This document shows positions 21,032-60,624 of a DNA stretch of 64,000 bases, piece by piece (position 1 is the first letter of the stretch; each line of letters starts with the position of its first letter). Position numbers and translations under genes: made by a program. This DNA is from a virus. The notes under the pieces were generated by a model that saw nothing but the letters and a program-made list of their open reading frames with translations, searched no databases and had not been told where the DNA came from. Location of the stretch: positions 1 through 64,000 of the IMG/VR virus record IMGVR_UViG_3300029985_000042. One strand, given 5' to 3'.

Positions 21032-21697
21032 ATGGCTATAAAATTAAATAAAAATCATTCGAATCTAGATACTATAAAATTATGGATGTCGGGACAAAAG
21101 ACCGATATTAGAGTATCCAACCATATTACAGAAAAAGAGAAGTATAGGCAAGACGGAGAAGAATTTGAATTGCAAGGTATCAAGTATAAAAAAGAAAATG
21201 GAAAAATTATTAAACTTACCAAATCTCAAGGTGATGTAATACGGGAATGTTTAAAGCGAATTTGTAAATGTGGACAGAATATTGCATGGGGAAGTAAAAA
21301 AGACGAATATTTTTACAACCGAACCGGACTATGTGAAAATTGTTTAATCAATTATGAAACCAATCTAAGAATTGTGGGGGCGTATGATGTCTATGAAAAA
21401 TATAAATTATCATCATATGCACTGGGAGACTTAAAAGATAAAAAAGAAAAGGTAAAAGATTTAATTAAATTTTTCATAGAAAATCCAAAAACTGCGGGCG
21501 ATGTTACTTTGCCATGCGAAAATGGTATAGGAAATGATGCCGTGTGGGTCAATACTAATCGAGACCTAATTCTTGAAGATGCTAAAGTGGATTTGAAAAA
21601 AATTAAGAAATTAATAACCCAAGCATCAAAAATGAAACAAGAAAGTAAAAAGTTATATGTAGAGAAGTGTAAAGAATTTAAATTGAATGTAATATGA
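21032..21697 (+). CDS. Conserved-looking hypothetical protein upstream of terminase
   Basis: A 221-residue charged protein with a Cys motif CKCGQNI..GLCENC (about residues 79-115) that could bind zinc. The C-terminal half is Lys-rich and helical (LKDKKEKVKDLIKFFIENP, then LKKIKKLITQASKMKQ). Its place before the terminase gene raises the possibility of a small-terminase-like or DNA-packaging role, but no HTH or family signature is evident. Its stop overlaps the next start by 4 bases, typical of coupling. Confidence 0.5.
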   Translation: MAIKLNKNHSNLDTIKLWMSGQKTDIRVSNHITEKEKYRQDGEEFELQGIKYKKENGKIIKLTKSQGDVIRECLKRICKCGQNIAWGSKKDEYFYNRTGLCENCLINYETNLRIVGAYDVYEKYKLSSYALGDLKDKKEKVKDLIKFFIENPKTAGDVTLPCENGIGNDAVWVNTNRDLILEDAKVDLKKIKKLITQASKMKQESKKLYVEKCKEFKLNVI

Positions 21698-22656
21698 GTA
21701 ATAATTGTAAGATATGTGGAAGTGAATGTAAAAGTGAGACGAAACATGCGTTTCACGCTCATCACATATCATCCGACAAGTATTATGATAAATTTTATAA
21801 GAAAGATGGTGAAGGAGTGTGTAAGATTTGCAATAAGTCAACTAGATTTAAATCGTTTACAGTTGGATATTGTAAATACTGCTCAAATACGTGTGCTAAT
21901 AATGACCCAGAATTTATAGCCAAGATTTCTAACACTGTGAAATCTAAGGAATGTCAAGATAAAATAAAGAATACAAATATAGAAAAATATGGAACGGAAT
22001 ATGGTTTCCAAAGCGAAAATAACAAATCAAAATCTAAAATTACATCATTAAAAAGATATGGTGTTGACAATCCCCAAAAGTCTAAGGTAATACGAAATAA
22101 AACTACAAATACTATCCTTGAAAAATATGGAGTTGACAACTATTCAAAAACTCCAAATTTCAAACAACAAATGACTGAATTTGCGCTCGAAACTTATGGA
22201 TGTAAACATCACTTAAATTCTTCAACAATCCAAGAAAAAATAAAGAAGTATAATATGGAACATTACGGGGTAGAATATAAATTTCAGTCTGATACATTTA
22301 GAAAATCGGCAATGTATAAAGGAAGATATAAATATAAACAATATACTACAAAATTTGGAACTAAATTACATTACCAAACCAAGCCAGAATTAAAGTTTAT
22401 TGAGGAATGTGAGTTGAAAAATATTAATATCGAACAGGGAGATAAAATACATTTTTATTTTAATGGAAAAAATAGAAGATATTTCTGTGATTTTAAAATT
22501 AAAGAACTTGCCGGTTGGAGGTTGGTTGAAGTTAAGAGTAAACATAAATGGTGGTATGAAGAGCTAAAAAATGGAACCGCAAAAGCTAAGGCAAATGCTG
22601 CTATTAAATATAGCAAAGAAAACAACTATTTACCATTCAAAATAAAATTTTATTAA
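21694..22656 (+). CDS. Homing-type endonuclease with KYGVDN repeats
   Basis: A 320-residue protein. A Cys-rich N-terminus (CKICGSECKSETKH, CKICNKS, YCKYCSNTC) precedes five repeats of the IEKYGTEYGFQS / LEKYGVDNYSKT type (about residues 80-205). The C-terminal nuclease shows TKPELKFIEECELKN, YFCDFKIKE and RLVEVKSK, a PD-(D/E)XK-like arrangement with D-x(n)-ExK. The same repeats occur in the 564-residue nuclease at 31054. It is wedged between a hypothetical gene and the terminase, a usual site for a free-standing homing gene. Confidence 0.7.
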   Translation: MSNNCKICGSECKSETKHAFHAHHISSDKYYDKFYKKDGEGVCKICNKSTRFKSFTVGYCKYCSNTCANNDPEFIAKISNTVKSKECQDKIKNTNIEKYGTEYGFQSENNKSKSKITSLKRYGVDNPQKSKVIRNKTTNTILEKYGVDNYSKTPNFKQQMTEFALETYGCKHHLNSSTIQEKIKKYNMEHYGVEYKFQSDTFRKSAMYKGRYKYKQYTTKFGTKLHYQTKPELKFIEECELKNINIEQGDKIHFYFNGKNRRYFCDFKIKELAGWRLVEVKSKHKWWYEELKNGTAKAKANAAIKYSKENNYLPFKIKFY

Positions 22657-31053: not shown

Positions 31054-32748
31054 ATGCAAATAAAAGAATGGATACTAAATAACTTATACAGTAATAATAA
31101 ATTAATCTCCAAACGGTGTAGATTGGAGTGGTTTCATAATAACCGGTATACGTCCAGATATGATGAAATTGTGATGAAGACCAACTTTCTAATGGATGAG
31201 AGTGTAACTTTGGGACAGAGGATTTGGCATATTATAAATAAAAAATATGAAATGCCAAAATGTTTAAACCCTGAATGTAACAATAACACTTCATTTATAT
31301 GTTTGTCGATTGGATATTTAAATACCTGCTGCAATCGGTGTGCTCAAAAAAATCCAACTACAATATCAAAAATAAAATCTACAAACTTAAAAAAATATGG
31401 AACAGAATACGGGCTACAGTCTGAATATGTGAAGCAAGCTGGTAAATCTACATTATTGGATAAATATGGGGTTGATAATATATCTAAGGCAGATGGAATT
31501 TCTAATAAGAAAAAAGAAACATGTAGAAAAAACCATGGAGTTGATTGGATTGTTCAAAATAGAAAATTTATAGAAGATATAGTATTTGATAGATATGGCG
31601 TAAAAAACGTTCAACAAATTAAATCAATTGCAGATAAAAGAGTAACAACCCGTCGTAAGATATTTTATAATAGTTTGTTTACTGGAGATAGATTAAAATT
31701 ACTAGCAACTCCGCTATTTACCGAAGAAGAATATATAACCTCCGGTCTGTTTAAAAAATATAACTTCAAATGTAATGTCTGTAATACCATATTTGAAGAT
31801 TGTTTGGAAGATGGGGATTTGCCAAGATGCACTGAATGTTATAAAGGAAGTTCTATATTTGAAAAAGAAGTTGGGGACTTTATAAAAACGTTTATATCTC
31901 CATCTGATATAATAGAGAATGACAAAAAAATCCTTGGCGGATTGGAATTAGACTTATATATTCCGTCAAAAAATATTGCGATTGAATGTGATGGTTTATT
32001 TTGGCATGGGGAAATCGGTGGTGGTAAGACTAAGACATATCACATTACTAAGACCAATAAATGCGAAGTAAAAAATATTAGATTAATTCATATATTTGAA
32101 GATGAATGGGTTAATAATAAAGAATTAGTAAAATCCAAATTAAAACATATACTTGGAAGCAACGTATCTGCCAGAATTCATGCTAGAAAATGTATAATAA
32201 AAGAAATATCCGATAATTCTTATGTTGATTTCGTAAATAAACACCACATTCAAGGAGCCGAAAAAACTTCATGTATTCGACTTGGAGCATATTATAACGA
32301 TATATTAGTTGCAGTATCTACATTTGGAAAATTACGAAAGTGTCTTGGCCAAATATCTAAAGATAGAGAATATGAATTATATAGATTTTGTATCGACACA
32401 TCTTATATTATATCCGGTATCGGAGGTAAGTTAATGTCTCATTTTATACAAACATATAATCCATTAAAAATAACATCATATGCCGATAGACGCTGGACAT
32501 CAACTAGTAAGAACATATATTCCAAATTAGGATTTAAATTAGTGTCCAATACAGTCCCAAATTATTGGTATTTTGGAAAACGAAAAAATTATAAGAGATA
32601 TCATAGATTTAACTTTAGAAAAGACCAATTATCTGCCACATTACCAATATTCGACCCATCATTATCGGAATGGGAGAATATGAAAAATAATAAGTGGGAT
32701 AGGATATGGGATTGTGGAAATATTAAGTATGAATTGATTATTTCTTGA
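31054..32748 (+). CDS. Homing-type endonuclease with KYGVDN repeats and GNAT-like C-terminus
   Basis: A 564-residue protein. After a Cys-rich segment (CLNPECNN, TCCNRCAQKN) come four repeats of the LKKYGTEYGLQS / LDKYGVDNISKA type (about residues 107-195) and a CxxC pair. The nuclease core (about 270-370) shows GGLELDLYIPSKNIAIECDGLFWHGE and RLIHIFEDEW, the Vsr-like EDxHD pattern. Residues about 380-530 (LGAYYNDILVAVSTFGK, YRFCIDTSYIISGIGGKLMSHF, YADRRWTSTSKNIYSKLGFKL) look like a GNAT acyltransferase fold, a companion domain I recall from other phage homing proteins. It splits the protease from the following late gene and has its own promoter. Confidence 0.75.
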   Translation: MQIKEWILNNLYSNNKLISKRCRLEWFHNNRYTSRYDEIVMKTNFLMDESVTLGQRIWHIINKKYEMPKCLNPECNNNTSFICLSIGYLNTCCNRCAQKNPTTISKIKSTNLKKYGTEYGLQSEYVKQAGKSTLLDKYGVDNISKADGISNKKKETCRKNHGVDWIVQNRKFIEDIVFDRYGVKNVQQIKSIADKRVTTRRKIFYNSLFTGDRLKLLATPLFTEEEYITSGLFKKYNFKCNVCNTIFEDCLEDGDLPRCTECYKGSSIFEKEVGDFIKTFISPSDIIENDKKILGGLELDLYIPSKNIAIECDGLFWHGEIGGGKTKTYHITKTNKCEVKNIRLIHIFEDEWVNNKELVKSKLKHILGSNVSARIHARKCIIKEISDNSYVDFVNKHHIQGAEKTSCIRLGAYYNDILVAVSTFGKLRKCLGQISKDREYELYRFCIDTSYIISGIGGKLMSHFIQTYNPLKITSYADRRWTSTSKNIYSKLGFKLVSNTVPNYWYFGKRKNYKRYHRFNFRKDQLSATLPIFDPSLSEWENMKNNKWDRIWDCGNIKYELIIS

Positions 32749-42344: not shown

Positions 42345-43424
42345 ATGACATCGTTAAATATATCTAAAGATGAGTGGATTGAGTTAAATAATACTAAATC
42401 TAAGGATGAGATTAAATTATATCTCCATGATTTGGTTGAAAAGAATAATATTCAACTACCGACTAGAGAAATTACATATGAGGAAATGTTGGAAGATTTT
42501 CAAGAATTATGTAAATTAGATTCATCGTCTTTAATTGTAGACTCCAAAGATTTTGTATTGAAATATGATTATAAATGGTTTCGGCCAAAATTTTATATAA
42601 AAAATTGTAATATTGGAAACAAATCATCTGATTATTTCCATCAAGATAATAGATTGAAATGCAATTCTATCAATGCTCCATCTCCACATAGAAGCTGGAA
42701 TAATAGAAAATTTAGAGATGGAATTTTCAATGCTTTTTGGACTTTAAAATTTAAAGAAATCAATTCTAATACCATTCGCCAAGCAATTGCACTTCGTAAA
42801 TATACCGCTTCCCAATTTAGACCGAGTGCGGCAAAGTGTGTTTATGATTATTTTAAACCATATAGCGTGTTAGATTTTTCAAGTGGGTGGGGAGACCGAT
42901 TAGCTGGATTTTATGCTTCATCTGCGGATGGTTATACCGGAGTTGACCCTAATTTAGCATTATATGATGGGTATTCGGCTCAAGTTAAAGCATATCAATT
43001 TGAAGATTCTAAAACATCGGTCTTAAATCCAAAATGTGCCGAAGAGATGGACTATAACAATGAATTTGATTTAATATTCACTTCACCCCCATACTTTAAT
43101 ATAGAAAAATATTCTGGAGATGATAAGCAATCATGTAAAAGATATAAGAAATGTGATATTTGGAATGAGAAATTTTTATTTGAATCTATTAAGAGAGCAT
43201 GGAATGGATTAATACCTAGTGGGGATTTGTTAATCAATATTTCCGACGTATATTCTGGTCATACTATAAATAAAATATGTGACCCCATGAATGATTTTAT
43301 AAATACATTGGAAGGTGCATCTTATCAAGGAACCATTGGATATCAAATGGCTAAACGCCCAAATAGTAAATCGGTTAAATCTGGAGTTTTTTGTGAACCT
43401 ATGTGGCACTGGAAAAAAATTTAA
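42345..43424 (+). CDS. DNA methyltransferase-like protein (SPPY family)
   Basis: A 359-residue protein with an AdoMet-binding motif I VLDFSSGWGDRLAGF (about 175-189) followed by FDLIFTSPPYFNIEKYSGD (SPPY at 247-250), the catalytic motif of N4/N6 amino-methyltransferases. A family-specific block SQFRPSAAKCVYDYF precedes motif I. Two relatives occur here: the 336-residue protein at 47562 and the C-terminal half of the fusion at 55172. It could modify DNA against restriction, but no target-recognition domain is obvious, and other substrates are possible. Confidence 0.65.
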   Translation: MTSLNISKDEWIELNNTKSKDEIKLYLHDLVEKNNIQLPTREITYEEMLEDFQELCKLDSSSLIVDSKDFVLKYDYKWFRPKFYIKNCNIGNKSSDYFHQDNRLKCNSINAPSPHRSWNNRKFRDGIFNAFWTLKFKEINSNTIRQAIALRKYTASQFRPSAAKCVYDYFKPYSVLDFSSGWGDRLAGFYASSADGYTGVDPNLALYDGYSAQVKAYQFEDSKTSVLNPKCAEEMDYNNEFDLIFTSPPYFNIEKYSGDDKQSCKRYKKCDIWNEKFLFESIKRAWNGLIPSGDLLINISDVYSGHTINKICDPMNDFINTLEGASYQGTIGYQMAKRPNSKSVKSGVFCEPMWHWKKI

Positions 43425-43981: not shown

Positions 43982-44419
43982 ATGATTAAATATCCTACAT
44001 CGTTCCAGACAGTTGATTGTTTTATTGTAAACAGAGCAAAAAACGAAATATTAATTGGCAGAAAACCAACCGAGAATAAATTTCGATTGCCCGGCGGATT
44101 TGTTGACCCGTCCGATTTGTCGTTGGAAGATGCCGCCAGACGAGAATTACATGAGGAAGTCGGAATAAATTTGGAATGTAGCCATCCACAATATCTCTTC
44201 AGCAATCGTCAAGATGACCCCCGTTATCGAGATAGTCAGGATAAAATTCTAACGGCAGTATTTGAATTTAATTATACATTTGGATTTGCTACGGCGGGCG
44301 ATGACCTCAAAGAATGTGGCTGGTTTGGTGATTATTATATAAAACTAAACTATAAAGATTTAATCGTAGAAACTCATTGGCCTCTTATCGAAAAATTAAT
44401 TGAACTCAGTGAAATTTAA
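43982..44419 (+). CDS. Nudix hydrolase, NatV-like
   Basis: A 145-residue Nudix enzyme. The Nudix box is GGFVDPSDLSLEDAARRELH then EEVGI (residues 38-62), slightly longer than the canonical spacing. The downstream motif DDPRYRDSQDKILTAVFEF is typical of the Nudix domain of NatV/NadM-type proteins, which act on ADP-ribose or related nucleotides in NAD+ metabolism. Vibrio phage KVP40 encodes such a domain fused to an NMN adenylyltransferase; here the adenylyltransferase part is absent. It lies immediately before NAMPT, each with its own promoter. Confidence 0.8.
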   Translation: MIKYPTSFQTVDCFIVNRAKNEILIGRKPTENKFRLPGGFVDPSDLSLEDAARRELHEEVGINLECSHPQYLFSNRQDDPRYRDSQDKILTAVFEFNYTFGFATAGDDLKECGWFGDYYIKLNYKDLIVETHWPLIEKLIELSEI

Positions 44420-44422
44420 CTC

Positions 44423-44450
44423 TTGACTTATTATAAATCTCTGATATCCT
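44423..44450 (+). promoter_or_regulatory. Sigma-70-like promoter, 16-bp spacer
   Basis: TTGACT, 16 bases ending CTGA, TATCCT, 15 bases before the ATG at 44466. Confidence 0.7.
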
Positions 44451-44465
44451 ACTGAAAAATAAATT

Positions 44466-45836
44466 ATGAAAATGAATAAACTTAACAAACACAACCTGAT
44501 TTTTACCCTGGACTCATATAAGCAACTCCATAGTGAGATGTATATGCCAAATACTGAAGTCGTATATTCTTACCTAGAAGCAAGGAAGGGCGGGATGTAT
44601 GATTATACTACATTCTTTGGATTGCAATATATTCTAATCGAGTGGCTCGAAGGTGTCGTTCTGACGAAAGAATTAATCGATGAAGCCGAACCTATTCTAA
44701 AGGAACATTTTAAATTTAATGGTGATATTTGGAGTAGAGCCAAGTGGGACTATATTGTAGAAAAACATGGCGGTAAATTACCAATTAAAATTAAGGCCGT
44801 AAAAGAAGGAAAGAATTTTCCAATTGGAACTGTGTTGATGACGGTAGAGAACACTGACCCTAATTGTTTTTGGCTTACGAACGCTCTTGAAACATTGTTA
44901 CAGCAAGTTTGGGCCGCTACGACAGTCTGCACTCGTAGCAATTATATTATCAATATTATCAAAGATTATTTCCAACAGACGGTTGATTATTCTAATCAAT
45001 GGCTTGTTGACTATTATTTGCATGATTTTTCCCAACGAGGATTGAGCGTCATGGAAGAAGCGGGTGTTTCTTGTTTGGCACATTTAGTCAACAGTAAGGG
45101 GACTGATAGTTTAATGGCACTTCCATATGCCATAAATTATTATGACGCTAATATCGATGGACTTGCTTATTCTGTGCCAGCGAGTGAACATAGTATTGGG
45201 ACCGCACTTGGAACGGGAGGAGAATTTGAAGTTACTAAACATTTAATTAAACAATATCCAACCGGAATTCTTTCAGTTGTATCGGATAGTTATAACATTA
45301 CAAATGCAGTTAAGGTATATTGTAATGAATTAAAATCTGATATTATGGGTAGAAATGGAAAATTTGTAATTCGGCCTGACAGTCCCCGATTTGAAGGAGA
45401 TACTCCTGAAGCACAAGTATTATGGATTGCACAACAATTATGGGACGGTTTCGGTGGAACTATAAATTCGAAGAGTTATAAAGTATTAGATAGCCATGTT
45501 GGAATTATTTATGGAGACTCGTTGACCGAACACGACATTAAAAATATTTTGGAAACATTAAAAGTTAATGGATTTAGTGCTGAAACTTGCGTGTTCGGAT
45601 GTGGTTCATATCTCGTAAGAAAATTAAATAGAGATACCCAGAGATTTGCATTTAAATGCTCGGCACAAAAAAGAGATGGAGTTTGGCATGATATTTACAA
45701 AACTCCGTTGGATATGTCGAAGGCGAGTAAACGTGGACGATTTGATGATAACCAAGACCTAGAAACGGTATTTATCGATGGTGAAATCACCAAGCGGTAT
45801 ACATTTGAACAAGTAAGGAAGAATAGTTGGCTATGA
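44466..45836 (+). CDS. nadV: Nicotinamide phosphoribosyltransferase (NAMPT/NadV)
   Basis: A 456-residue enzyme that converts nicotinamide and PRPP to NMN, the first step of NAD+ salvage. Recognisable blocks are DSYKQLHSEMYMP, YSYLEAR, DYYLHDFSQRGLSVMEEAG, YSVPASEHSIG (H242, matching the phosphorylated catalytic His of NAMPT), VVSDSYNITNAV, VIRPDSPRFEGD and GIIYGDSL. Length is close to human NAMPT (491). T4-like phages such as KVP40 carry nadV beside natV, the same pairing as here. NMN would still need an adenylyltransferase to become NAD+, not seen in this window. The last 6 bases overlap a convergent homing endonuclease. Confidence 0.92.
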   Translation: MKMNKLNKHNLIFTLDSYKQLHSEMYMPNTEVVYSYLEARKGGMYDYTTFFGLQYILIEWLEGVVLTKELIDEAEPILKEHFKFNGDIWSRAKWDYIVEKHGGKLPIKIKAVKEGKNFPIGTVLMTVENTDPNCFWLTNALETLLQQVWAATTVCTRSNYIINIIKDYFQQTVDYSNQWLVDYYLHDFSQRGLSVMEEAGVSCLAHLVNSKGTDSLMALPYAINYYDANIDGLAYSVPASEHSIGTALGTGGEFEVTKHLIKQYPTGILSVVSDSYNITNAVKVYCNELKSDIMGRNGKFVIRPDSPRFEGDTPEAQVLWIAQQLWDGFGGTINSKSYKVLDSHVGIIYGDSLTEHDIKNILETLKVNGFSAETCVFGCGSYLVRKLNRDTQRFAFKCSAQKRDGVWHDIYKTPLDMSKASKRGRFDDNQDLETVFIDGEITKRYTFEQVRKNSWL

Positions 45837-46658
45837 GTTAATGATTTTAATCATTCGTTCGGTTTTTCTTTTTAATCCTATAGAATTGTTTATAGGATTA
45901 AAATAATTTATTAGTTTTTTAACTCCATCTTTATTCTGTATCATTACACATGAATATTTGTTTCCTGTTTTTTCTATTATTCGATATAATTTATTGATTA
46001 TATTTAATTCTTTTAGTAAAGACTGAATATCTGTCCAATCTTGTTGATACGTTCCTGAAAATTTAAATGAATTATATTTTGTTTTTTTTGTAATACACCC
46101 GTCTCCGTCGAAATAACCTCTCCAGAAATACATTTTTAAATTATCCGGTATTGTATTTAGTATTTTGGTAGGAGTTGTGCTAGATTTTATATTATAATCA
46201 TTATTTTTTAAAAAATTAAAAAGTTCTTTGTTATTTGTGCTAATTGATGATACTGGTTTCCAATCCTTCCGAACTCTATTTTGAATACACCATTTTCCTA
46301 ATTTGTTTATATACGGCAAAATATCATTCATATCTTTCGAGTTAATTTCCAATGATATTCGATGATGATTTATCTTATTTGATTTATAGCTTATAATATT
46401 TCCATCAGCCCATAAAAACCCCAGAAAATAAGCAGTCTCCATCTTGTCTATGGTTAAGAATTGATTTATATTGATATTCATCATAGATGGGTGTTTAGAT
46501 AAATATTTACCAGTTCTTTGTTGTATTTTATATCGTTTTACGACAGGATATAAACAATATGCTGGTCTATTTAATATTTTAGAGCAATAACACGCTCCAT
46601 ATTTTGGGTAATTAGTTCGTAGGAACTCTATTTCTTCGATTGTATATTTTTTATTCAT
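45831..46658 (-). CDS. LAGLIDADG homing endonuclease
   Basis: A 275-residue minus-strand protein with two LAGLIDADG helices, TAYFLGFLWADGNII and YFWRGYFDGDGCITK, each providing an acidic residue. The N-terminal ~50 residues are HTH-like (CYCSKILNRPAYCLYPVVKRYKI). It is paralogous to the endonuclease at 36362-37399 (same FWADG/FWGDG and RG..D.DGCI blocks, same ST.N.KELF segment) but lacks the upstream RHH gene. It separates NAMPT from the NADAR gene. Confidence 0.82.
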   Translation of the reverse strand: MNKKYTIEEIEFLRTNYPKYGACYCSKILNRPAYCLYPVVKRYKIQQRTGKYLSKHPSMMNININQFLTIDKMETAYFLGFLWADGNIISYKSNKINHHRISLEINSKDMNDILPYINKLGKWCIQNRVRKDWKPVSSISTNNKELFNFLKNNDYNIKSSTTPTKILNTIPDNLKMYFWRGYFDGDGCITKKTKYNSFKFSGTYQQDWTDIQSLLKELNIINKLYRIIEKTGNKYSCVMIQNKDGVKKLINYFNPINNSIGLKRKTERMIKIINS

Positions 46659-47561: not shown

Positions 47562-48572
47562 ATGAACATTTTCATTAACAAAAAACAATGGTCTCAATTT
47601 AACGAGACTGAAATGGTAAATTTTAAAGATAATATCTTTAATCATTATAGAACATATGGATTCCCATATTTTAATCTATGTAGAGAAGAACGAAAAATAA
47701 TATTTGAAAAATTAAAATCGTTTAATTCGTCTACTTTGCTACAAGATGGAAATAAGTTAAAACAGGTAATGCTTGGGTTAAATTTAGCCAATCATTATAT
47801 GCCTCATATGTGGGATGTTAAATGTAATGGATTTGTATCTCCAATGGAAACTTATTTGGATGATATTAAATTTAAAAAGGCAATTGATAAGAGAATTAAA
47901 CTTGGTGATAATATATCAAATGCCGGAATTAGAAAAGCATTGTGCTGGTCAAATGGGTCGCAAAGAGTTAGTAATTTTAGGCCGACTGTAGCCAAGTATA
48001 TTTACGATAACTATTCGGGCGAAGGAAACGTATTGGATTTTTCTTCTGGATATGGTGGGAGATTATTGGGAGCATTGTCATCTAATAGGGTTAAATATTA
48101 TTATGGTTATGAACCGTGTATTAAAACCAGAACATGTTTATATCAAATCTATGATGATATAGATAATAATACCAATTCTATTAATATTCCATTTACAGTA
48201 TCACCCAGTCCATTCGAAGACTCCTATAATTCTGATAGTGTATTTGATTTGGCATTCTCATCTCCACCATATTTCCGGACAGAAATTTATAGTGATGAGG
48301 ATACTCAATCATGTAATCGGTATAAAACCAAAGAAGAATGGAAAGAAAAATTTCTAAAAGTATTAATTGAGAAGTGTTATTCATTTCTAAAGGACGGAGG
48401 AATATTTGCGATAAATGTAGCAAACGTAAAGACTTATCCGGACTTAGAAAAAGACACGTTACAATTGGCAAATGAAATTGGGTTTACGTTGATTAAGACT
48501 TATCAGATGAGTTTATCAGCACTCATGAAATCGGGCTACAAATATGAACCAATATTTGTATTTAAGAAGTAA
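47562..48572 (+). CDS. DNA methyltransferase-like protein (SPPY family)
   Basis: A 336-residue protein, relative of the gene at 42345. Motif I is NVLDFSSGYGGRLLGAL and the catalytic motif FDLAFSSPPYFRTEIYSDED (SPPY at about 234-237). The family block NFRPTVAKYIYDNY precedes motif I, and GFVSPMETYLDDIKFKKAIDKRI matches the nuclease fusion at 55172 (GNPSPKEAWLDDKIMQEVID). A longer frame from a GTG at 47547 exists; the ATG at 47562 is preferred. Its overlapping TAATG with the next gene suggests coupling. Confidence 0.65.
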   Translation: MNIFINKKQWSQFNETEMVNFKDNIFNHYRTYGFPYFNLCREERKIIFEKLKSFNSSTLLQDGNKLKQVMLGLNLANHYMPHMWDVKCNGFVSPMETYLDDIKFKKAIDKRIKLGDNISNAGIRKALCWSNGSQRVSNFRPTVAKYIYDNYSGEGNVLDFSSGYGGRLLGALSSNRVKYYYGYEPCIKTRTCLYQIYDDIDNNTNSINIPFTVSPSPFEDSYNSDSVFDLAFSSPPYFRTEIYSDEDTQSCNRYKTKEEWKEKFLKVLIEKCYSFLKDGGIFAINVANVKTYPDLEKDTLQLANEIGFTLIKTYQMSLSALMKSGYKYEPIFVFKK

Positions 48573-49024: not shown

Positions 49025-49672
49025 ATGACTAAAGAAGAAAAAAAATTTCACAAACGAGAATATAACAAACTATGGAGAAATACTCTTACAGATTCTGAAA
49101 AAGAAGATTTGAGACTTAAAAAGCGGGAATATAATAAAAAACATTATCTTGAACATAGAGATGTTGAATTGGAGAGGAAACGGGAATATAGTCGAGGCCG
49201 CAGGGCAAGACTATCTGATGAGCAGCGATTACATCATAACAAAGTCCAACGAGAATATAATAAGAATAATCGAAGTAAAATAAACAATATAAAAAATAAA
49301 TATGACAAGAGTAAAAAAGGATATGAATGTCGAATTAAAAATTCATATGGGCTGACCTATAATGACGTAAAACAATTATTCTTATATCAAAATGGTAAAT
49401 GTTTCATATGCAAATCTATATTTAAAAATAAAAATGATATGAATATTGACCACAATCACTCCAATGGTAAAGTTCGTCAATTGTTATGTCGCTCATGCAA
49501 TAGAGGGCTTGGGTGTTTTTACGAAAATATTAATTCTTTTGAAAATGCATTGGAGTATTTAAAGAAATGGAATGAATCCCCAAATGTTAAAATAGAACAG
49601 GTGACACCCTTAAATTCTTTAGAATTTGAAAAATTTATGGGACATGAAGTTCAAACTTTCGATGTAAACTAA
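49025..49672 (+). CDS. HNH homing endonuclease, endonuclease VII-like
   Basis: A 215-residue protein. The N-terminal half is a very basic run of KKREYNKKH / ERKREYSRGR repeats. The C-terminal half is a recombination endonuclease VII-like HNH domain: YGLTYNDVKQLFLYQNGKCFICK, NIDHNHSNGKVRQLLCRSCN. T4 endonuclease VII (gp49) resolves Holliday junctions, but the basic repeats and the pairing with an RHH gene argue for a free-standing homing enzyme. It has one of the few good Shine-Dalgarno sites (AGGAG, 9 bases upstream). Confidence 0.78.
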   Translation: MTKEEKKFHKREYNKLWRNTLTDSEKEDLRLKKREYNKKHYLEHRDVELERKREYSRGRRARLSDEQRLHHNKVQREYNKNNRSKINNIKNKYDKSKKGYECRIKNSYGLTYNDVKQLFLYQNGKCFICKSIFKNKNDMNIDHNHSNGKVRQLLCRSCNRGLGCFYENINSFENALEYLKKWNESPNVKIEQVTPLNSLEFEKFMGHEVQTFDVN

Positions 49673-50547: not shown

Positions 50548-50557
50548 TATAAATATC
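50548..50557 (-). promoter_or_regulatory. Late-type motif (minus strand)
   Basis: Reads GATATTTATA on the minus strand, 4 bases before the start at 50543. Confidence 0.5.
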
Positions 50558-51272
50558 AAAATATATGTGCAGATGCTATTTTAATTGCGGTTTCTTCTGA
50601 TATGTTTACATCGTTACTCCAAACGTCAGCGACCGAATTTAAAATGTTTATTGATGCTGGCAATGTCCCAAACTTAGACTGTAGAATAATTTTATTTATT
50701 GGAAATTTATATCTATTACTCAATCGTCCTTTTAAATTACCATTCCACTCATGTATTCTTGCGGTTAATGTCTTAGACGATACATTTACCAAATTAAACT
50801 CCGATAATAAAGTGTGTATCTTATCTCTTCCTATTTTAGTAGTTAACTTTAAAATTAACTGTTTTACAGGCTCTTCTATTTGTTTATATCCAAAATTATC
50901 AATCCCAATTGATTTTTCTCTTGTTTTATTTGATAATGCGACTGCCGAGCGTATTTTATCTTTAATTTCAGATGGAAGTTTATGGTATAAGTTAACATCA
51001 TTTGACCCATTCCCACCAGCGGAAATATTATATCCTATATTCTTATCTGTAGAATTTAACATCTTTATCCAATAAATCTCTCGCTCATTTAATTGATTGT
51101 TGGAATTACAATACTCTAATATTTCTTTTTTAAAATTTTTCTTTTTATATTTTTTAATTGCACTTCGCAATATTATTCCAGACCCAAAATAAAGTGGATT
51201 ATTAGTTGCGTTTTTACCAACGTAAATCTTTCCATTTATATTGTTTGTGATTTTATATATAACACCAATCAT
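50556..51272 (-). CDS. GIY-YIG homing endonuclease
   Basis: A 238-residue minus-strand protein. GVIYKITNNINGKIYVGKN is the GIY-YIG core, followed by YFGSGIILRSAIKKYKKKNFKKEIL and the catalytic-Glu region NEREIYWIKMLNS. GYNISAGGNGSND and later HTH-like segments form the DNA-binding part. The frame is open from 51308, but the ATG at 51272 begins directly at the catalytic domain and follows a late-type motif. Placed between two minus-strand hypothetical genes as a free-standing insertion. Confidence 0.82.
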   Translation of the reverse strand: MIGVIYKITNNINGKIYVGKNATNNPLYFGSGIILRSAIKKYKKKNFKKEILEYCNSNNQLNEREIYWIKMLNSTDKNIGYNISAGGNGSNDVNLYHKLPSEIKDKIRSAVALSNKTREKSIGIDNFGYKQIEEPVKQLILKLTTKIGRDKIHTLLSEFNLVNVSSKTLTARIHEWNGNLKGRLSNRYKFPINKIILQSKFGTLPASINILNSVADVWSNDVNISEETAIKIASAHIF

Positions 51273-51277
51273 ATGAG

Positions 51278-51287
51278 TATAAATATA
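51278..51287 (-). promoter_or_regulatory. Late-type motif (minus strand)
   Basis: Reads TATATTTATA on the minus strand, 5 bases before the start at 51272. Confidence 0.5.
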
Positions 51288-51297
51288 ATCCAAAACC

Positions 51298-51900
51298 TTA
51301 TATATCAAGTTTTATTAAAAACTCCGACAAAATCTTCGCACCGTCAGTTTCTCCCACGAATGGAACACTTTTAATTACTTCCAGTGAATTGTCAATTTTA
51401 GGAGTTTCTGGTTGAGTTGGTTGAGTTGGTTGAGCCGGTTGGGGCTGTTCATCTGCTTCCTGTAAATTATTTTCTTGACCTTGTGATTGACCTGATGAAC
51501 TCTCCGATGACGTATTTTTTGAAAACGCAGTCCAACAAAATTGATTTCCTTCTTTCAATTTTTTAATAATAGTAGTATTATTGTTTGAAAAATCATCGGT
51601 AGACTCATATTTTATCATGAAATCTGTAAATTCAACGGGTTTTGCCGATGTATAATTTGTTACTGCTTGCTTTTCTTGCGGCAAAAATTGCAATCCACGA
51701 TGTTGAGCCACATAACTATTAAACTCGGAGTTGGTATTAAATTTTTTAGAAATAACATTTAAATTTAGATTTTCATTCTCGCAAATGATTGATTTATATG
51801 ATTTTTTGTATTCTTTCAATATTTTTAACAACTTTTTTTTCCCATTGAAATCAAGAGAATTCCTTGATTTTATTATAGTTTTTAGTTTTTTATTATTCAT
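51298..51900 (-). CDS. Hypothetical protein with Pro/Gln repeat linker
   Basis: A 200-residue minus-strand protein: basic N-terminus (MNNKKLKTIIKSRNSLDFNG), a Ser/Gln/Pro linker with QPTQPTQP repeats (about 143-165), and a hydrophobic C-terminus. It lies divergently from the scaffold gene. A head-associated role is only suggested by position. Confidence 0.55.
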   Translation of the reverse strand: MNNKKLKTIIKSRNSLDFNGKKKLLKILKEYKKSYKSIICENENLNLNVISKKFNTNSEFNSYVAQHRGLQFLPQEKQAVTNYTSAKPVEFTDFMIKYESTDDFSNNNTTIIKKLKEGNQFCWTAFSKNTSSESSSGQSQGQENNLQEADEQPQPAQPTQPTQPETPKIDNSLEVIKSVPFVGETDGAKILSEFLIKLDI

Positions 51901-53336: not shown

Positions 53337-55028
53337 ATGAACGATGTAAAACAATTATTGACCAGTGCGCTTAATCCGCAAGCTCGTCTTTTGCAAGAAA
53401 CCCGTGGTCTCGTGACCAAGTGGGACAAGACTGGATTACTTGAAGGTCTCAAGAGCCAAGTCGAAAAATCAAATATGTCTGTATTGCTTGAAAACCAAGC
53501 TAAACAGCTTATCGAAGAATCTTCCTCAACTGGAACTTCTGGAAACTCCGAACAATGGGCTGGTGTAGCTTTGCCGTTGGTTCGCCGTGTGTTCGCAGAA
53601 ATCGCAGCCAAGGAATTCGTATCTGTTCAGCCAATGAACCTCCCATCAGGGCTTGTGTTCTATTTGGACTTCAAATATGGTTCTAACAGCGGCGTGTTCA
53701 CCAAAGACTCTGGCACAAACTATGAGTCATTGTTCGGTGGAACTGGTATCAAGTCTGGTTCAACAGACGCTCCGGTTAATGGTCTATATGGACCTGGTAG
53801 ATATGCATACACTATCAACGACCAGACAATCTCCTTAACTGGTGGTTCTGTCGCAAGTGCTTCTATCGCCGATATTAACTTTGACACTGGTAATGCAAAT
53901 GACCCAGTTAATCAGTCTATCTCTTCATCCTTGGCTGCTGGTGCGTTGTATACCTATACGACTACTAACTTCTCAGCCAACTCATTGACCGCATCAGGTT
54001 CCGCTCCTGATTTAAACGCCGTCCGTTCATTCACTATCAGTGGTTCTGGTATCGTCACTTATTACCCTGGGTTTACCCGTGTTAATGGTCCTGAAGCAGT
54101 GTTCGTGGTCAGCGGCTCAAGTGTTGCTACGACTGTTACGATTAACTACTCTGTCCAACCTCAACCGACGTCACGTGGCGACTTCGAAGATAAGGGTATT
54201 AAATCAACCTCAACCGACACTGGACTTAACCAAGATATCGGTATTCCTGAAATCAACCTCCAGTTGAACAGCGAACCTATCGTTGCTAAGACCCGTAAGT
54301 TGAAAGCCGTTTGGACTCCTGAATTGGCTCAAGACTTGAACGCTTATCACAGCGTCGATGCAGAAGCAGAATTGACTGCGTTGCTCTCGGAATATGTGTC
54401 CATGGAAATCGACCTCGAAATCCTCGACATGTTAATCACTAATGCTCCGAACATCAACAAAGAACGTTGGAGTGCTAAAATCAACCGTGATATCATCAAG
54501 ACTGGTGCGAATAGCTACAGCATTGTTGATAACTCAACGACTGCTAACGCTGGTGCTGGTTTCGGTTACTACACCAAGGCTTCGTGGTATCAGACTCTTG
54601 GTAACAAGATTCAGAAAATCTCGAACAGTATTCATCAGTTGACCCTCCGTGGTGGTGCTAACTTCATGGTCGTAGGACCGGCAGTCGCAACTATCTTGGA
54701 ATCAATTCCTGGATTCGTGGTTAACACTGATGGTGACTCCGCTAAGTTCGCAATGGGTGTCTCCAAGGTTGGTAACTTCGCAAGTCGTTTCCAAGTGTAT
54801 AAGAACCCTTATATGCAGGAAAACTTAATCCTCATGGGTTTCCGTGGAAATAACTTCCTCGAAACCGGCGCAGTATACTCACCGTATATTCCGCTCATCC
54901 AAACTCCTTTGGTGTATGACCCGATTAACTTTACGCCAAGACGTGGTGTTATGACTCGCTACGCCAAAAAAATGGTTAGACCGGAATTTTATGGCCTAAT
55001 CTACGTGTCTGACACTAACTTAGTCTAA
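53337..55028 (+). CDS. 23: Major capsid protein, T4 gp23-like
   Basis: A 563-residue capsid subunit. Conserved blocks: SEQWAGVALPLVRRVFAEIAAKEFVSVQPMNLP, GLVFYLDFKYG, KTRKLKAVWTPELAQDLNAYHSVDAEAELT, ANFMVVGP, and YAKKMVRPEFYGLIYVSD at the end. The N-terminal ~65 residues are the likely propeptide removed by gp21, with a candidate site near KQLIEE before SSSTGTSG. Codon choice is visibly richer in C/G third positions than in neighbouring genes, as expected for a highly expressed gene. There is no Shine-Dalgarno site, only an A-rich leader. A strong terminator follows. Confidence 0.95.
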   Translation: MNDVKQLLTSALNPQARLLQETRGLVTKWDKTGLLEGLKSQVEKSNMSVLLENQAKQLIEESSSTGTSGNSEQWAGVALPLVRRVFAEIAAKEFVSVQPMNLPSGLVFYLDFKYGSNSGVFTKDSGTNYESLFGGTGIKSGSTDAPVNGLYGPGRYAYTINDQTISLTGGSVASASIADINFDTGNANDPVNQSISSSLAAGALYTYTTTNFSANSLTASGSAPDLNAVRSFTISGSGIVTYYPGFTRVNGPEAVFVVSGSSVATTVTINYSVQPQPTSRGDFEDKGIKSTSTDTGLNQDIGIPEINLQLNSEPIVAKTRKLKAVWTPELAQDLNAYHSVDAEAELTALLSEYVSMEIDLEILDMLITNAPNINKERWSAKINRDIIKTGANSYSIVDNSTTANAGAGFGYYTKASWYQTLGNKIQKISNSIHQLTLRGGANFMVVGPAVATILESIPGFVVNTDGDSAKFAMGVSKVGNFASRFQVYKNPYMQENLILMGFRGNNFLETGAVYSPYIPLIQTPLVYDPINFTPRRGVMTRYAKKMVRPEFYGLIYVSDTNLV

Positions 55029-55045
55029 TATTAATCAATAAACAC

Positions 55046-55080
55046 AAGGCTCCCATGAATTTGGGAGCCTTTTTTATTTT
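55046..55080 (+). terminator. Rho-independent terminator after the capsid gene
   Basis: A 10-bp perfect stem (AAGGCTCCCA, 6-base loop, TGGGAGCCTT) followed by a T-rich run, 17 bases after the capsid stop. Confidence 0.93.
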
Positions 55081-55133: not shown

Positions 55134-55162
55134 TTGACTCTTTCTTGCATATCGTATATACT
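55134..55162 (+). promoter_or_regulatory. Sigma-70-like promoter
   Basis: TTGACT, 17 bases, TATACT, 9 bases before the ATG at 55172. It lies between the inverted repeat and a direct repeat of part of its arm. Confidence 0.65.
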
Positions 55163-55171
55163 TATTAGTAT

Positions 55172-57199
55172 ATGAATGATAAAAAAAGAATAGTAATAAA
55201 TAAACCCCTTACTAAAACATGTGATATATGCCACAATGATTTCTCATTATATTCATTTTCGAGTCATATAAAACATTTACATAAATTAACGTCGGATGAG
55301 TATGCTACTAAATATGGAGAATTTCGGCAACCTAAACGAGAAAAATCAAACCGAATAATAAATAAAATAACATGTCAACTATGTAATGTAGAATTCTCCT
55401 CGGTTGGGATGTTCACACATCTCAGAGATACTCATAATACAACTCCTGATGATTATACGACACAATTTGGAGAATACCGTCCGTCCAAGATACGACAAAA
55501 AGAATATGTTGGTAGACTCGAAACAACGAACAAAGAAGACCATCAAATTTGTTTAATATGCAATCAGCCATTTCCATCCGGAAATTTACTTGGATATCAT
55601 GTAAAAAATATTCATAATATTAATAAAAAGGATTATATAATGGATTATGTATTTAAAGGTGTTCGGACTTTATGTGGATGCGGATGTCAACGAAAAGTCA
55701 AGTTATTAACATATCATCCATATAAGGTAGATTTTATATCGGGGCATAATTCTGTTGGAGAAGGCAATGCAATGTTTGGGAAACATTTTTCAATAGAAAC
55801 AAAAAAGAAAATGTCGTTGAAGGCAATTGATAGAATTAACACCCAAACATTTGTAAAAACTGATACTAAGCCAGAATTGGAATTTAAATCTATATTAGAT
55901 AAATTACAAATCAATTATATCCACCCATATACTGTCGATTTGGGTAAACGTCATGCGTCGATTGATTTTTATCTTCCCGATTATAATATGCTAATTGAAG
56001 TTGATGGTGAGTATTGGCATCCTAAAGATTTTAGTAAATTAAATTTTCATACAATTTCCAATATTATATCAGATGGCGAACGTAAAGGATTGAAAAATCT
56101 ATATAGAATTAGAGAATTTGACATGGCTAAATTTATGGAGTGTGCCGCAACTAAAGAATTGGCAATTGAGTATATTAAAACAAATAATATCATATTTAAT
56201 CCGGAATTAAGATATAAGAAACCGATTATAAATAAAACATACTTTCAAGAATGCCTCTTGAAAAAGGGGAAGGAATATGTAAAATCATTTAACTGGATAC
56301 TTCGAAAATTCATTCGAACATTCCAACCTGAATTACCTTACCCTGATTTGGAAGAAAATTTGCCTGATATATTATCTAAACTATCAAAGATGGATACGTC
56401 TAAGCCATATAATCCAGAGACAAAAGAATTTTCCAATAATATAAGTGTAGTGGGACATAATTATTTAAAGCATTATTTTCATTCATATTGGGGAAGTAAA
56501 TTTAATGGTAATCCCTCGCCAAAGGAGGCTTGGTTAGATGATAAAATAATGCAGGAAGTTATTGATTATCGAATTGGATGTAATACGAGTGGGGAGGTAT
56601 ATGATTTTAGTTTACATCAATGTGTGAGAGGATTGAGTGCTCGAAGAATAAGTGTATCTTTTTTTAAACCGGCGTTGGCGGCTTCTATTTATAAAACTTA
56701 TTTGGGAGATATAACTAATCCAGTGGTATTAGACCCATGTTGTGGATTTGGGGGTAGATTGTTAGGATTTAAGAGCCAATATCCAGATGGAAAATATATT
56801 GGATGTGAACCTAATGTTGAAACATATAATGAATTACAAACACTAATTAAAAATGGTAATTGGGAGGATAGTGTTGAAATATATAATTGTAAATTTGAAG
56901 ATTTTGTATTTAATAACAATTATAAATTTGATATGATATTTACAAGTATTCCGTATTATGATGTTGAAATATATTCTAATAATACCGAATACAAATCGTT
57001 TGAAGAATGGAGAAATACATTTATAAACTCGATTGAAAATTGTAAATTATATTCTTCCAATGTATATATTAATTTGCCGGTTGAATTATGTAATTCGTTA
57101 GGATGGTCTGATAAGGTAGAATCATATATTATATCAAATAGAAGTCATTTTGATAATAAAGAAGGTAAGAAAATGGAGCCGATTGTTAAGTTGTCTTAA
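55172..57199 (+). CDS. Fusion of zinc-finger EDxHD nuclease and methyltransferase-like domain
   Basis: A 675-residue protein. Three C2H2-like zinc fingers lie at about residues 17-37, 68-88 and 127-148 (CDICHNDF..HIKHLHK pattern, each followed by an EY..KYGE-type tail), then a NUMOD3-like piece (GEGNAMFGKHFS). The nuclease core spans 232-325: TKPELEF, ASIDFYLPDYNMLIEVDGEYWH, YRIREFD, the Vsr-like EDxHD pattern. Residues about 430-675 resemble the two SPPY proteins: GNPSPKEAWLDD, FFKPALAASIYKTY, motif I VLDPCCGFGGRLLGF, then FDMIFTSIPYYDVEIYS, where SIPY replaces SPPY, so activity is doubtful. It has its own promoter after the capsid terminator. A homing enzyme that captured a modification domain, or a restriction-modification-like element, are both possible. 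Confidence 0.7.
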   Translation: MNDKKRIVINKPLTKTCDICHNDFSLYSFSSHIKHLHKLTSDEYATKYGEFRQPKREKSNRIINKITCQLCNVEFSSVGMFTHLRDTHNTTPDDYTTQFGEYRPSKIRQKEYVGRLETTNKEDHQICLICNQPFPSGNLLGYHVKNIHNINKKDYIMDYVFKGVRTLCGCGCQRKVKLLTYHPYKVDFISGHNSVGEGNAMFGKHFSIETKKKMSLKAIDRINTQTFVKTDTKPELEFKSILDKLQINYIHPYTVDLGKRHASIDFYLPDYNMLIEVDGEYWHPKDFSKLNFHTISNIISDGERKGLKNLYRIREFDMAKFMECAATKELAIEYIKTNNIIFNPELRYKKPIINKTYFQECLLKKGKEYVKSFNWILRKFIRTFQPELPYPDLEENLPDILSKLSKMDTSKPYNPETKEFSNNISVVGHNYLKHYFHSYWGSKFNGNPSPKEAWLDDKIMQEVIDYRIGCNTSGEVYDFSLHQCVRGLSARRISVSFFKPALAASIYKTYLGDITNPVVLDPCCGFGGRLLGFKSQYPDGKYIGCEPNVETYNELQTLIKNGNWEDSVEIYNCKFEDFVFNNNYKFDMIFTSIPYYDVEIYSNNTEYKSFEEWRNTFINSIENCKLYSSNVYINLPVELCNSLGWSDKVESYIISNRSHFDNKEGKKMEPIVKLS

Positions 57200-58688: not shown

Positions 58689-59492
58689 ATGATTAAACTC
58701 CGAGATTTGTTGTGTGAACGAATGTCTTTTAGAGACATTCTAAGGGCGTCTGATTCCGCACGGTTAAATCGTTCAAAAACAGTATCTAACAAATCGTTGG
58801 GAGTTAGGTCTAATGACGAATTAGAAACTTGGAACTTTTCGTATAAAACTACAGGGGGAAAATCAACTACGGGTAGGCGTCACCGTGGGTATATAAAATT
58901 TAATAAAGAAAACGTTGATTCCACAGATAATCCCGCCGATTTAGAAATTATATGTGACTGCAACTGTCCGGACATGACGTATAATCTTGCATATAGAAAT
59001 AATCAAAAACAAATTACCCCGATAGGTTCTACCGCAATTAACGGTTCTAATGGACAGAAACCTACTCCGGAACATGACCATTTCGGATTATGTAAACATT
59101 TAGGTTCGTTGGCTAGATATCTCAATGAAACTACGATACAAGCACCTCAAGAACCGGAGCCAGCTAATGTTCCAACTTCTCAAGTGAAACAGTCGCCTGA
59201 AAAAATACCAATAATTAACCCTACGTCTGACGCACCAACGCCGGAGGACTCTCATTCGATAGAGCCGACCCCCGTTCCACCGTCAAACAGGAAAATTCCT
59301 CCTCAAAAAAATAAACCAATTAAACCACCGGAAAAAGAAGTTCCTCGACAAAAAGCACCGGTAAAAATCGGTGATACTTATTCGGATGAAAATGAAATAA
59401 CGGAAAATAACAATATTAAAAAATCATTGCGGCAAAAAATCGAAGAGTTTATAAAGAAAACTCCAATGTTTAACGTTCCTTATCCTGATTAA
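58689..59492 (+). CDS. SWIM-like zinc-binding protein with Pro-rich tail
   Basis: A 267-residue protein. It starts MIKLRDLLCERMSF, a leader like those of other hypothetical genes. ADLEIICDCNCPDMTYNLAY and later FGLCKHLGSLARYL supply the CxC..CxH ligands of a SWIM-type zinc site, a pattern I recall from a common family in large T4-like phages. The rest (about 150-235) is Pro/Lys-rich linker (PTPVPPSNRKIPPQKNKPIK). The ATG at 58689 is used because it gives the leader directly. A DNA-binding or virion role is possible. Confidence 0.6.
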   Translation: MIKLRDLLCERMSFRDILRASDSARLNRSKTVSNKSLGVRSNDELETWNFSYKTTGGKSTTGRRHRGYIKFNKENVDSTDNPADLEIICDCNCPDMTYNLAYRNNQKQITPIGSTAINGSNGQKPTPEHDHFGLCKHLGSLARYLNETTIQAPQEPEPANVPTSQVKQSPEKIPIINPTSDAPTPEDSHSIEPTPVPPSNRKIPPQKNKPIKPPEKEVPRQKAPVKIGDTYSDENEITENNNIKKSLRQKIEEFIKKTPMFNVPYPD

Positions 59493-60624
59493 TTATTTTA
59501 TTTCCCTTATCAATATTTCCAATTGAGGTTGAGCCATGGTCTCTTGCTATCTTGGTGGTAGCCCATCGTGGATATAAATTAGTATAATGACATGCCTTTC
59601 GAAATTCTTCTAAATTAGTTAAATCAAATACGTCTAGAGGAATGTTGTGGTCGATATGCCATACTTTACCGTAATTTTCCATTGTCATTCCAAGTTCAAA
59701 CTTACTTTTTAAATATATTATAAAGTCATCAATCGAAATTCCCAAATCCTTAACCGCAGAGCCTAATTTAGAATTTCGTTTTAGAGCACAATATAATCTA
59801 GTTCGCAAATTACATGCTATTTTAAATTTTGGACTTTTGGCTTTAAGTTCTCGTCTACTTCTATTCACTTTTTCACGATTGTTCTTATAATATAATGCCT
59901 GTTTTTCTCTGTTTTTATAATAATTTAATCTATTTTTTAATTGTCTTGCATCTTTATTATCAGTGTAATATTTTCTTTTCCTTTCTATTAATAGTTCTTT
60001 ATTTTTTAATCTATACAACTTTCCTTTTATTGCTACTATTTCTTTATTCTTAATATAATTTATCCTTCGGGTTTCTTTTAATATTTCTTTATTTTTTATA
60101 GCGTAGGATTTCTTATATTCGCTGGTTTTTAATTTATTTAATTTTCGTTGTTCTCGTATGAGTTCTTTATGTTCGGTATAATACACCCGACTATGTTCGG
60201 TTTGTTTCTCTTTATCTTTTATATATCTAAGTCTACTTTTTTCCTTGATTGATGATTTATTCTTTAAATTATAGTTCTTCAGATATTCCGTGCGTTTAAT
60301 TGCTTTTTCTTCTTTTATCCTAAATAGTTCTTCATCTGATATGATTATTTTATTTTTAACTCTCCTTTCTCTTTTTGAATTACTACTGCATAATTTACAT
60401 ATGGTATGATAACCGTCCTTTTTGGACTTATCTTTACAGAAGTCGTCTATATTTTTTTCGATGCCACATTTATTGCATTCTTTTCTTATTTTCCCAATAT
60501 CGTCGCATATTTTCGATATTAATCCGTTCTTTATGTCGGTTGTAGTATCGTTTGGCTCTTGCTCGTTGGAGTTCAAGCAATTCTTCTCTGGTTCGGTTAA
60601 GTTTTGGTTGAGATTTTCTTCCAT
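59470..60624 (-). CDS. HNH homing endonuclease with basic repeats
   Basis: A minus-strand frame of 384 codons. An N-terminal zinc knuckle pair (CNKCGIEKNIDDFCKD, CKLC) is followed by a long run of KNKE.. and YYT/YYK basic repeats (about 100-270). The C-terminal nuclease is YGKVWHIDHNIPLDVFDLTN..FRKACHYTNLYPRWA, an HNH-type site. The first ~47 codons overlap the GIY-YIG gene in another frame and look like a shadow of it; no ATG is available between them and the zinc knuckles, so the two genes may be one frameshifted GIY-YIG/HNH protein. Its end overlaps the convergent gene by 23 bases. Confidence 0.65.
   Translation of the reverse strand: MEENLNQNLTEPEKNCLNSNEQEPNDTTTDIKNGLISKICDDIGKIRKECNKCGIEKNIDDFCKDKSKKDGYHTICKLCSSNSKRERRVKNKIIISDEELFRIKEEKAIKRTEYLKNYNLKNKSSIKEKSRLRYIKDKEKQTEHSRVYYTEHKELIREQRKLNKLKTSEYKKSYAIKNKEILKETRRINYIKNKEIVAIKGKLYRLKNKELLIERKRKYYTDNKDARQLKNRLNYYKNREKQALYYKNNREKVNRSRRELKAKSPKFKIACNLRTRLYCALKRNSKLGSAVKDLGISIDDFIIYLKSKFELGMTMENYGKVWHIDHNIPLDVFDLTNLEEFRKACHYTNLYPRWATTKIARDHGSTSIGNIDKGNKIINQDKER

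Follow-up and report, generated by a model that had tools for sequence, protein, structure and literature searches.

The 64,000-nucleotide stretch of viral DNA analysed here (the window) encodes at 55172..57199 on the plus strand a 675-aa protein in which zinc fingers and an EDxHD nuclease are followed by a methyltransferase-derived domain, called the SIPY body. Comparison with related loci led to the reading, to which a probability of about 0.6 is assigned, that this is a homing gene residing beside the major capsid gene gp23 of large T4-like phages, and that its nuclease would be guided by the body to cut the capsid-region DNA of phages that lack the gene. The SIPY body would most likely be a locus-addressing module.

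The gene starts with an ATG, and all parts of its product are encoded on the plus strand. Three C2H2-type zinc fingers (aa 17-37, 68-88 and 127-148; 55220..55615) were recognized by counting the pattern C-x2-C...H-x3-5-H and by matches to zf-C2H2 and ROS_MUCR. They are followed by a NUMOD3-like motif (aa 196-215; 55757..55816), which is a weak match under the Pfam cut-off, by the EDxHD nuclease domain (aa 225-321; 55844..56134), and by the SIPY body (aa 345-675; 56204..57196). Three zinc fingers and an EDxHD nuclease joined to a domain related to SPPY proteins had been described in an earlier, sequence-only reading of this DNA, and the finger pattern, the profile matches of the nuclease and the homology of the body confirmed this architecture. 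The upstream neighbour is gp23 (53337..55028, + strand; Pfam Gp23, E 1.8e-73). Between the two genes a terminator-like hairpin with a T-run was read from the sequence (AGGCTCCC-ATGAATTT-GGGAGCCTTTTTT; 55046..55075, + strand), and L021 and L022 contain a related hairpin with 84-86% identity over 44 bp. A sigma-70-like promoter, TTGACT-17 bp-TATACT (55134..55162, + strand), ends 9 nt before the ATG of the fusion, and a Shine-Dalgarno sequence is absent ahead of this ATG. A similar layout of promoter and start is present in L007, L015, L028, L029, L033 and L035; in all cases, including the window, the promoters are consensus matches only. The arrangement suggests that the window fusion could be a self-contained cassette, possibly with a leaderless transcript.

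The nuclease head was assigned to the EDxHD family (I-Bth0305I/Vsr-like) by a profile relation together with the conserved E-D-x-H-D residues. The window protein has a match to a PADLOC HEase (E 2.8e-6) and a weak, sub-threshold match to Vsr (aa 225-288, E 7e-5). A profile of 20 sequences of the nuclease family matched PDB entry 3r3p, 'Mobile intron protein' (E 6.6e-4), which we take to be the EDxHD domain of I-Bth0305I. E235, D265, E276, D278, G279, H283 and D301 are kept in at least 20 of 21 homologues, and this E...D...E-x-D-G...H...D series is also a feature of I-Bth0305I. The latter is intron-encoded and has no methyltransferase body, in contrast to the SIPY family, in which the body is present and EDxHD is one of several types of head.

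IMG/VR was scanned with profiles of the fusion and of the body, and one phage genome of 484 kb, LR756508, was added, which yielded 30 distinct SIPY-body proteins. An EDxHD head was recognized by its motif in 26 of the 30, and the protein of L159 has a head similar to TnsA of Tn7, a PD-(D/E)xK nuclease (Pfam E 5e-6; NCBIfam 6e-4). Two copies are broken (L037, L145), and one runs off the end of its contig (L036). The fusion was not found in cellular genomes or plasmids. Upstream DNA is available for 29 of the loci, and in 28 of them gp23 precedes the fusion by at most 3 kb in the same orientation; the distance between gp23 and the fusion is 54-201 bp in 25 of these 28 gp23-linked loci. This position is not a selection effect, because the searches were made by protein only. 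Another homing nuclease is located between gp23 and the fusion in L010 and L026 (GIY-YIG in L026), and a GNAT-tailed nuclease lies between gp23 and the SIPY copy in L145. The exception is L030, in which the fusion adjoins a tail-tube gene and not gp23. Directly upstream of the L030 fusion is an ORF of 444 aa (L030:4469-5803) that resembles IS605 OrfB/TnpB by eye and has no Pfam or PHROG match.

Many relatives of gp23 are not followed by a fusion. In these cases the slot is empty, or it contains a GIY-YIG nuclease (e.g., L050, the gp23 of which is the closest relative of the window gp23, 83% identity) or a zinc-finger protein (L059, L076). One close group shows three states of this spacer, which is unoccupied in L095 and L096, carries a GIY-YIG nuclease in L097 and contains the SIPY fusion in L086, with DNA identities of 84-90% for gp23 and 84-96% for the next gene. 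L015 and L096 are colinear (77.6% identity through the end of the gp23 terminator, 78.3% from just past the fusion), and the gap of about 2.1 kb in this colinearity is the fusion. The L015 spacer opens with 53 bp that match the empty allele L095 exactly. The empty and alternative alleles in colinear DNA therefore mark the SIPY fusion as a free-standing, intronless homing gene. Like such genes, it sits in the spacer next to an essential, conserved gene, and decaying copies occur alongside intact ones: the tree contains 27 intact copies, whereas those of L037 and L145 are broken, which fits the cycle of gain, decay and loss of homing genes. An unusual homing system composed of a homing-type nuclease and a methyltransferase-derived domain had already been proposed in the sequence-only reading; the proposal is supported, with the mobility backed by the empty-site comparisons, but it had been silent on the fixed position beside gp23 and on the swapping of the heads.

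A position that is fixed across diverged phages, with gp23 down to 41% identical, would also be expected for a stable, non-mobile resident gene with a housekeeping role, e.g., in regulation of the capsid gene. Values for dN/dS are 0.08-0.15 in both halves of the fusion, with synonymous sites near saturation except for L021/L022, and comparison of the copies showed purifying selection on both halves, which would be in line with a resident gene, as would the finding that identities of the body are partly correlated with those of gp23 (rho 0.38). A resident gene is nevertheless a very improbable explanation, in view of the empty and GIY-YIG alleles in close relatives, the broken copies, and the several kinds of nuclease heads with complete active sites.

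The free-standing Seg and Mob homing endonucleases of T4-like phages likewise reside in spacers beside conserved essential genes and have empty alleles and decaying copies. T4 segD, the target of which is unknown, sits in the 23/24 spacer, and the SIPY fusion occupies the equivalent spacer (PMC2988022). Seg and Mob proteins consist of GIY-YIG or HNH nucleases and small DNA-binding modules, whereas in the SIPY family a methyltransferase-type body of about 330 aa is constant and the nuclease varies. A search for synonymous-site conservation in gp23 gave no signal special to carriers, and the use of synonymous-site peaks to find a conserved target in gp23 was dropped, because the peaks are common to carriers and non-carriers. 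Excess synonymous-site conservation at codons 435-446 and about 500-508 of the window gp23, seen in carriers and non-carriers, might stem from an overlapping signal or from a nuclease target common to both groups. Immediately past the gp23 slot, the opposite strand carries a conserved gene for a protein of 256-262 aa (L015:8028-8798, minus strand; also L086 and L090-L097), with the motif 'ETNHYTHKW' or 'EKNHYTHKW'.

The window contains a second homing nuclease with an enzyme-like tail, i.e., a protein of 564 aa (31054-32748, + strand) that combines DUF7487 and a restriction-type nuclease with a GNAT acetyltransferase domain at the C-terminus and matches phrog_3339 'homing endonuclease'. Relatives of this GNAT-tailed nuclease were found near or in the gp23 slot of L009, L010, L113 and L145. 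A link of the GNAT-tailed nucleases to Mom of phage Mu was not supported (hhalign probability 1.5). Further mobile-type nucleases are dense in the window (45831-46658, minus; 49025-49672, plus; 50556-51308, minus; 21694-22656, plus; 11002-12039, plus; 59470-60624, minus), and the kinds among these six are LAGLIDADG, endonuclease VII-like, GIY-YIG, DUF7487, NUMOD3/DUF559 and endonuclease VII/HNH-like. At 43982-45836 (+ strand), judged by eye, a NUDIX-type hydrolase gene is followed by a nicotinamide phosphoribosyltransferase-like gene, likely a putative NAD salvage pair.

The two halves of the fusion behave differently in comparisons between copies. The copies of L009, L017, L021, L022, L026 and L028 are 51-63% identical to the window copy in the body, but just 22-26% in the head, and across pairs the identities of heads and bodies are uncorrelated (rho 0.04). 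The heads fall into three EDxHD clusters and one TnsA-like group. On the body tree, 11 changes of head type are needed, compared with a mean of 12.6 after shuffling, and strongly supported sister pairs have different head types (L025/L143, L027/L035 and L030/L032). The heads change while the body stays, and therefore it is the body, not the nuclease, that remains with the gp23 locus. As shown by these comparisons of sequences, the nuclease heads are interchangeable, and the body is the constant part that is tied to the gp23 locus. The link of body and gp23 could be due to inheritance, together with replacement of the heads via recombination between conserved flanks, and not to reading of the target. 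Recombination between gp23 and the body, with the body as a homology arm, would be a simpler route to head swapping, but by itself it leaves the retention of the SAM site unexplained.

A related possibility is that a methyltransferase gene adjacent to gp23, with a DNA or RNA modification job of its own, was invaded by nucleases that fused to it, and that heads were gained and lost as gp23 and the conserved body recombined. The head swaps do occur between conserved flanks, and the insertion of nucleases into phage methylase genes is known, i.e., an HNH nuclease is encoded out of frame inside a resident phage methylase gene (PMC11855218). Both cases associate a homing nuclease with a phage methylase; unlike the hidden HNH nuclease, however, nuclease and methyltransferase-type body are one protein here and move as a unit. 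The empty alleles lack the whole unit, and among the proteins found by the profile scans every intact SIPY body carried a nuclease head, which makes an invaded resident methyltransferase improbable.

The SIPY body is homologous to two stand-alone, DNA methylase-like SPPY proteins encoded in the window, one of 359 aa (42345..43424, + strand) and one of 336 aa (47562..48572, + strand). The C-terminal half of the fusion is 31% identical to the former (E 1e-16) and 34% identical to the latter (E 1e-23), and a profile-profile comparison of the body with the SPPY family gave an hhalign probability of 100 and an E value of 2.1e-41. The relationship to the two SPPY proteins, which had been suspected from the sequence alone, was thereby verified, and it was also correct that the fusion has SIPY where they have SPPY. 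The homology begins near aa 400 and not, as had been stated, at aa 430, and therefore essentially a whole SPPY-type protein has been fused. An AlphaFold2 model of the body (aa ~345-675; pLDDT ~90 across most of the region) has a class I methyltransferase fold with a helical N-terminal extension. The best Foldseek matches were MnmM, PH1948 and TGS1; the fold search thus returned generic class I methyltransferases only and gave no clue to the substrate. As the solved structures closest to the body belong to RNA and other methyltransferases (MnmM, TGS1), a DNA substrate is putative.

The body has the profile homology of the methyltransferase core as well as the SAM motif I (D521-P-C-C-G-F-G-G-R529) and the following acidic residue (E546-P-N548) of the SPPY family, but its motif IV (S592-I-P-Y595) deviates from (S)PP(Y). 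In SIPY-body copies that extend as far as the motif, the sequence is always S-I-P-Y or S-I-P-F, while the stand-alone relatives all have S-P-P-Y or S-P-P-F, apart from one C-P-P-F. For the first scan this uniformity was not built in by the search, because the SIPY motif was no part of the patterns used. Judged from the alignments, SIPY is a fixed signature of the family and not a mutation peculiar to the window copy. Little or no variation was seen in motif I (D-P-C-x-G-F-G-x-R), in the acidic E-P-N and in S-I-P, and D521, G525, G527, R529, E546, S592 and P594 are invariant among copies that are just 34-60% identical. Eleven of the 12 residues that are invariant in the stand-alone family are kept in SIPY bodies, the first proline alone being altered, and the Q-S that is conserved after motif IV in the stand-alone family is missing. 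The stand-alone phage enzymes (phrog_12517) thus share with the fusion a homologous body with motif I before motif IV, but differ from it by having no nuclease, SPPY or SPPF, the Q-S after motif IV, and a location that is not beside gp23.

The exchange of SPPY for SIPY had been taken as a possible mark of a dead enzyme. This conclusion from SIPY alone was rejected, because every intact copy has retained S, I and P as well as the SAM motifs. The Erm and KsgA enzymes have N-I-P-Y or N-L-P-Y and are active, and thus the second position of motif IV need not be proline. Catalysis may still be changed or gone because of the exchange of SPPY for SIPY and the loss of Q-S, and the odds that the SIPY body still methylates its target are about even. 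If methyl transfer has been lost, the body would be a pure sequence-reading domain, perhaps base-flipping or SAM-sensing, and carriers would be immune due to sequence differences or the insertion, like carriers of other free-standing homing nucleases. The alteration of motif IV and the loss of Q-S coincide with the nuclease fusion in every EDxHD copy, and a body that is constant at one locus while the heads vary is expected for an addressing module. However, the SAM site should decay if just reading mattered, and its residues named above are invariant; I-P-Y and L-P-Y also occur in the active enzymes. A body that exclusively reads DNA is therefore possible, but rather doubtful.

A tree built from the methyltransferase core places the SIPY bodies together on one side of a single branch (SH-aLRT 94); the LAGLIDADG-methyltransferase fusions of L044 and L013 lie outside. 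The fusion of a nuclease with a methyltransferase therefore probably occurred more than once in the SPPY/SIPY enzyme family; by their position in the tree, the fusions of L044 and L013 are independent of the SIPY fusions. In these proteins (L044:2470-4401 and L013:3802-7491) LAGLIDADG_2 nucleases, two of them in L013, are N-terminal to an SPPF/SPPY methyltransferase with unaltered PP.

The presence of three homologues in one window is compatible with a two-part system, in which the stand-alone SPPY enzymes would methylate, and thereby protect, the sites cut by the fusion, as had been suggested in the sequence-only reading. The family contradicts this suggestion. A profile of the stand-alone family was run against 13 other contigs with a fusion (68-484 kb), which are possibly fragments, though several exceed 300 kb. 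In all 13 it found the contig's own fusion and no stand-alone member; LR756508 has a weak match (E 2e-4) besides its fusion. Conversely, stand-alone relatives occur in phages in which no fusion was found, e.g., Vibrio phage 2.058.O and Bacteroides DAC16, and the 336-aa protein is 40.5% identical to an 'N-4 cytosine-specific DNA methylase' of Vibrio phage 2.058.O. The paralogues were therefore rejected as protective partners, a role that is tenable only as a local accident in the window phage and has hardly any probability. The two SPPY genes of the window are best read as ordinary phage DNA methyltransferases.

According to the favoured reading of a body-guided homing gene, the SIPY body would bind the gp23-region DNA and SAM and would position whichever head is attached. 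The head would cut co-infecting phages without the gene at or near gp23, and repair of the cut would copy the fusion gene into the rival genome. With about even odds the body would also methylate its own target, so that the intact gp23 site of the carrier would be immune. A self-protecting homing endonuclease, which would mark its own phage's capsid gene by methylation and cut a co-infecting rival in which this gene is unmethylated, is a tentative reading with somewhat less than even chances. It would put the single-chain logic of cutting and modifying, known from Type IIG restriction enzymes, to homing use.

Type IIG/IIC enzymes are defined by a cleavage domain, a connector and an AdoMet methyltransferase domain in one chain (PMC4081073). 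The fusion also unites a nuclease and a methyltransferase-type domain in a single chain, as do MmeI and Eco57I. In MmeI the nuclease is N-terminal, and the fusion has the same order. In contrast to Type IIG/IIC enzymes, the fusion is a homing cassette in phage spacers, has an EDxHD or TnsA-like nuclease with zinc fingers, and its methylation is putative. Instead of the gamma-class motif IV (N/D)PPY followed by a specificity module, it has SIPY and not NPPY, and just about 80 aa follow motif IV, without a recognizable C-terminal specificity module. No published precedent for a fusion of a homing nuclease and a methyltransferase was found in the full-text literature searched, the coverage of which includes few subscription journals; the nearest known cases are the HNH nuclease hidden within a methylase gene of a phage, the homing endonucleases of the EDxHD family and the Type IIG enzymes. 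The SIPY fusion was classed with the free-standing homing endonucleases, because its methylation is putative; a methylating body would turn it into a homing system of a categorically new kind.

Taken together, the SIPY family is a case of a restriction-modification-like architecture that arose within a selfish element of phages. It bears on the long-standing puzzle of how free-standing homing nucleases target highly conserved genes and yet spare their own genome. A constant methyltransferase-type body at an essential locus, combined with a free change of nucleases, allows a direct test of whether methylation confers self-protection. If the element is self-protecting, an invariant essential sequence could be targeted without being disrupted or changed, and heads could be swapped freely. 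If the body merely reads DNA, it would be a natural, portable addressing module for several kinds of heads, which would be of interest for nuclease engineering.
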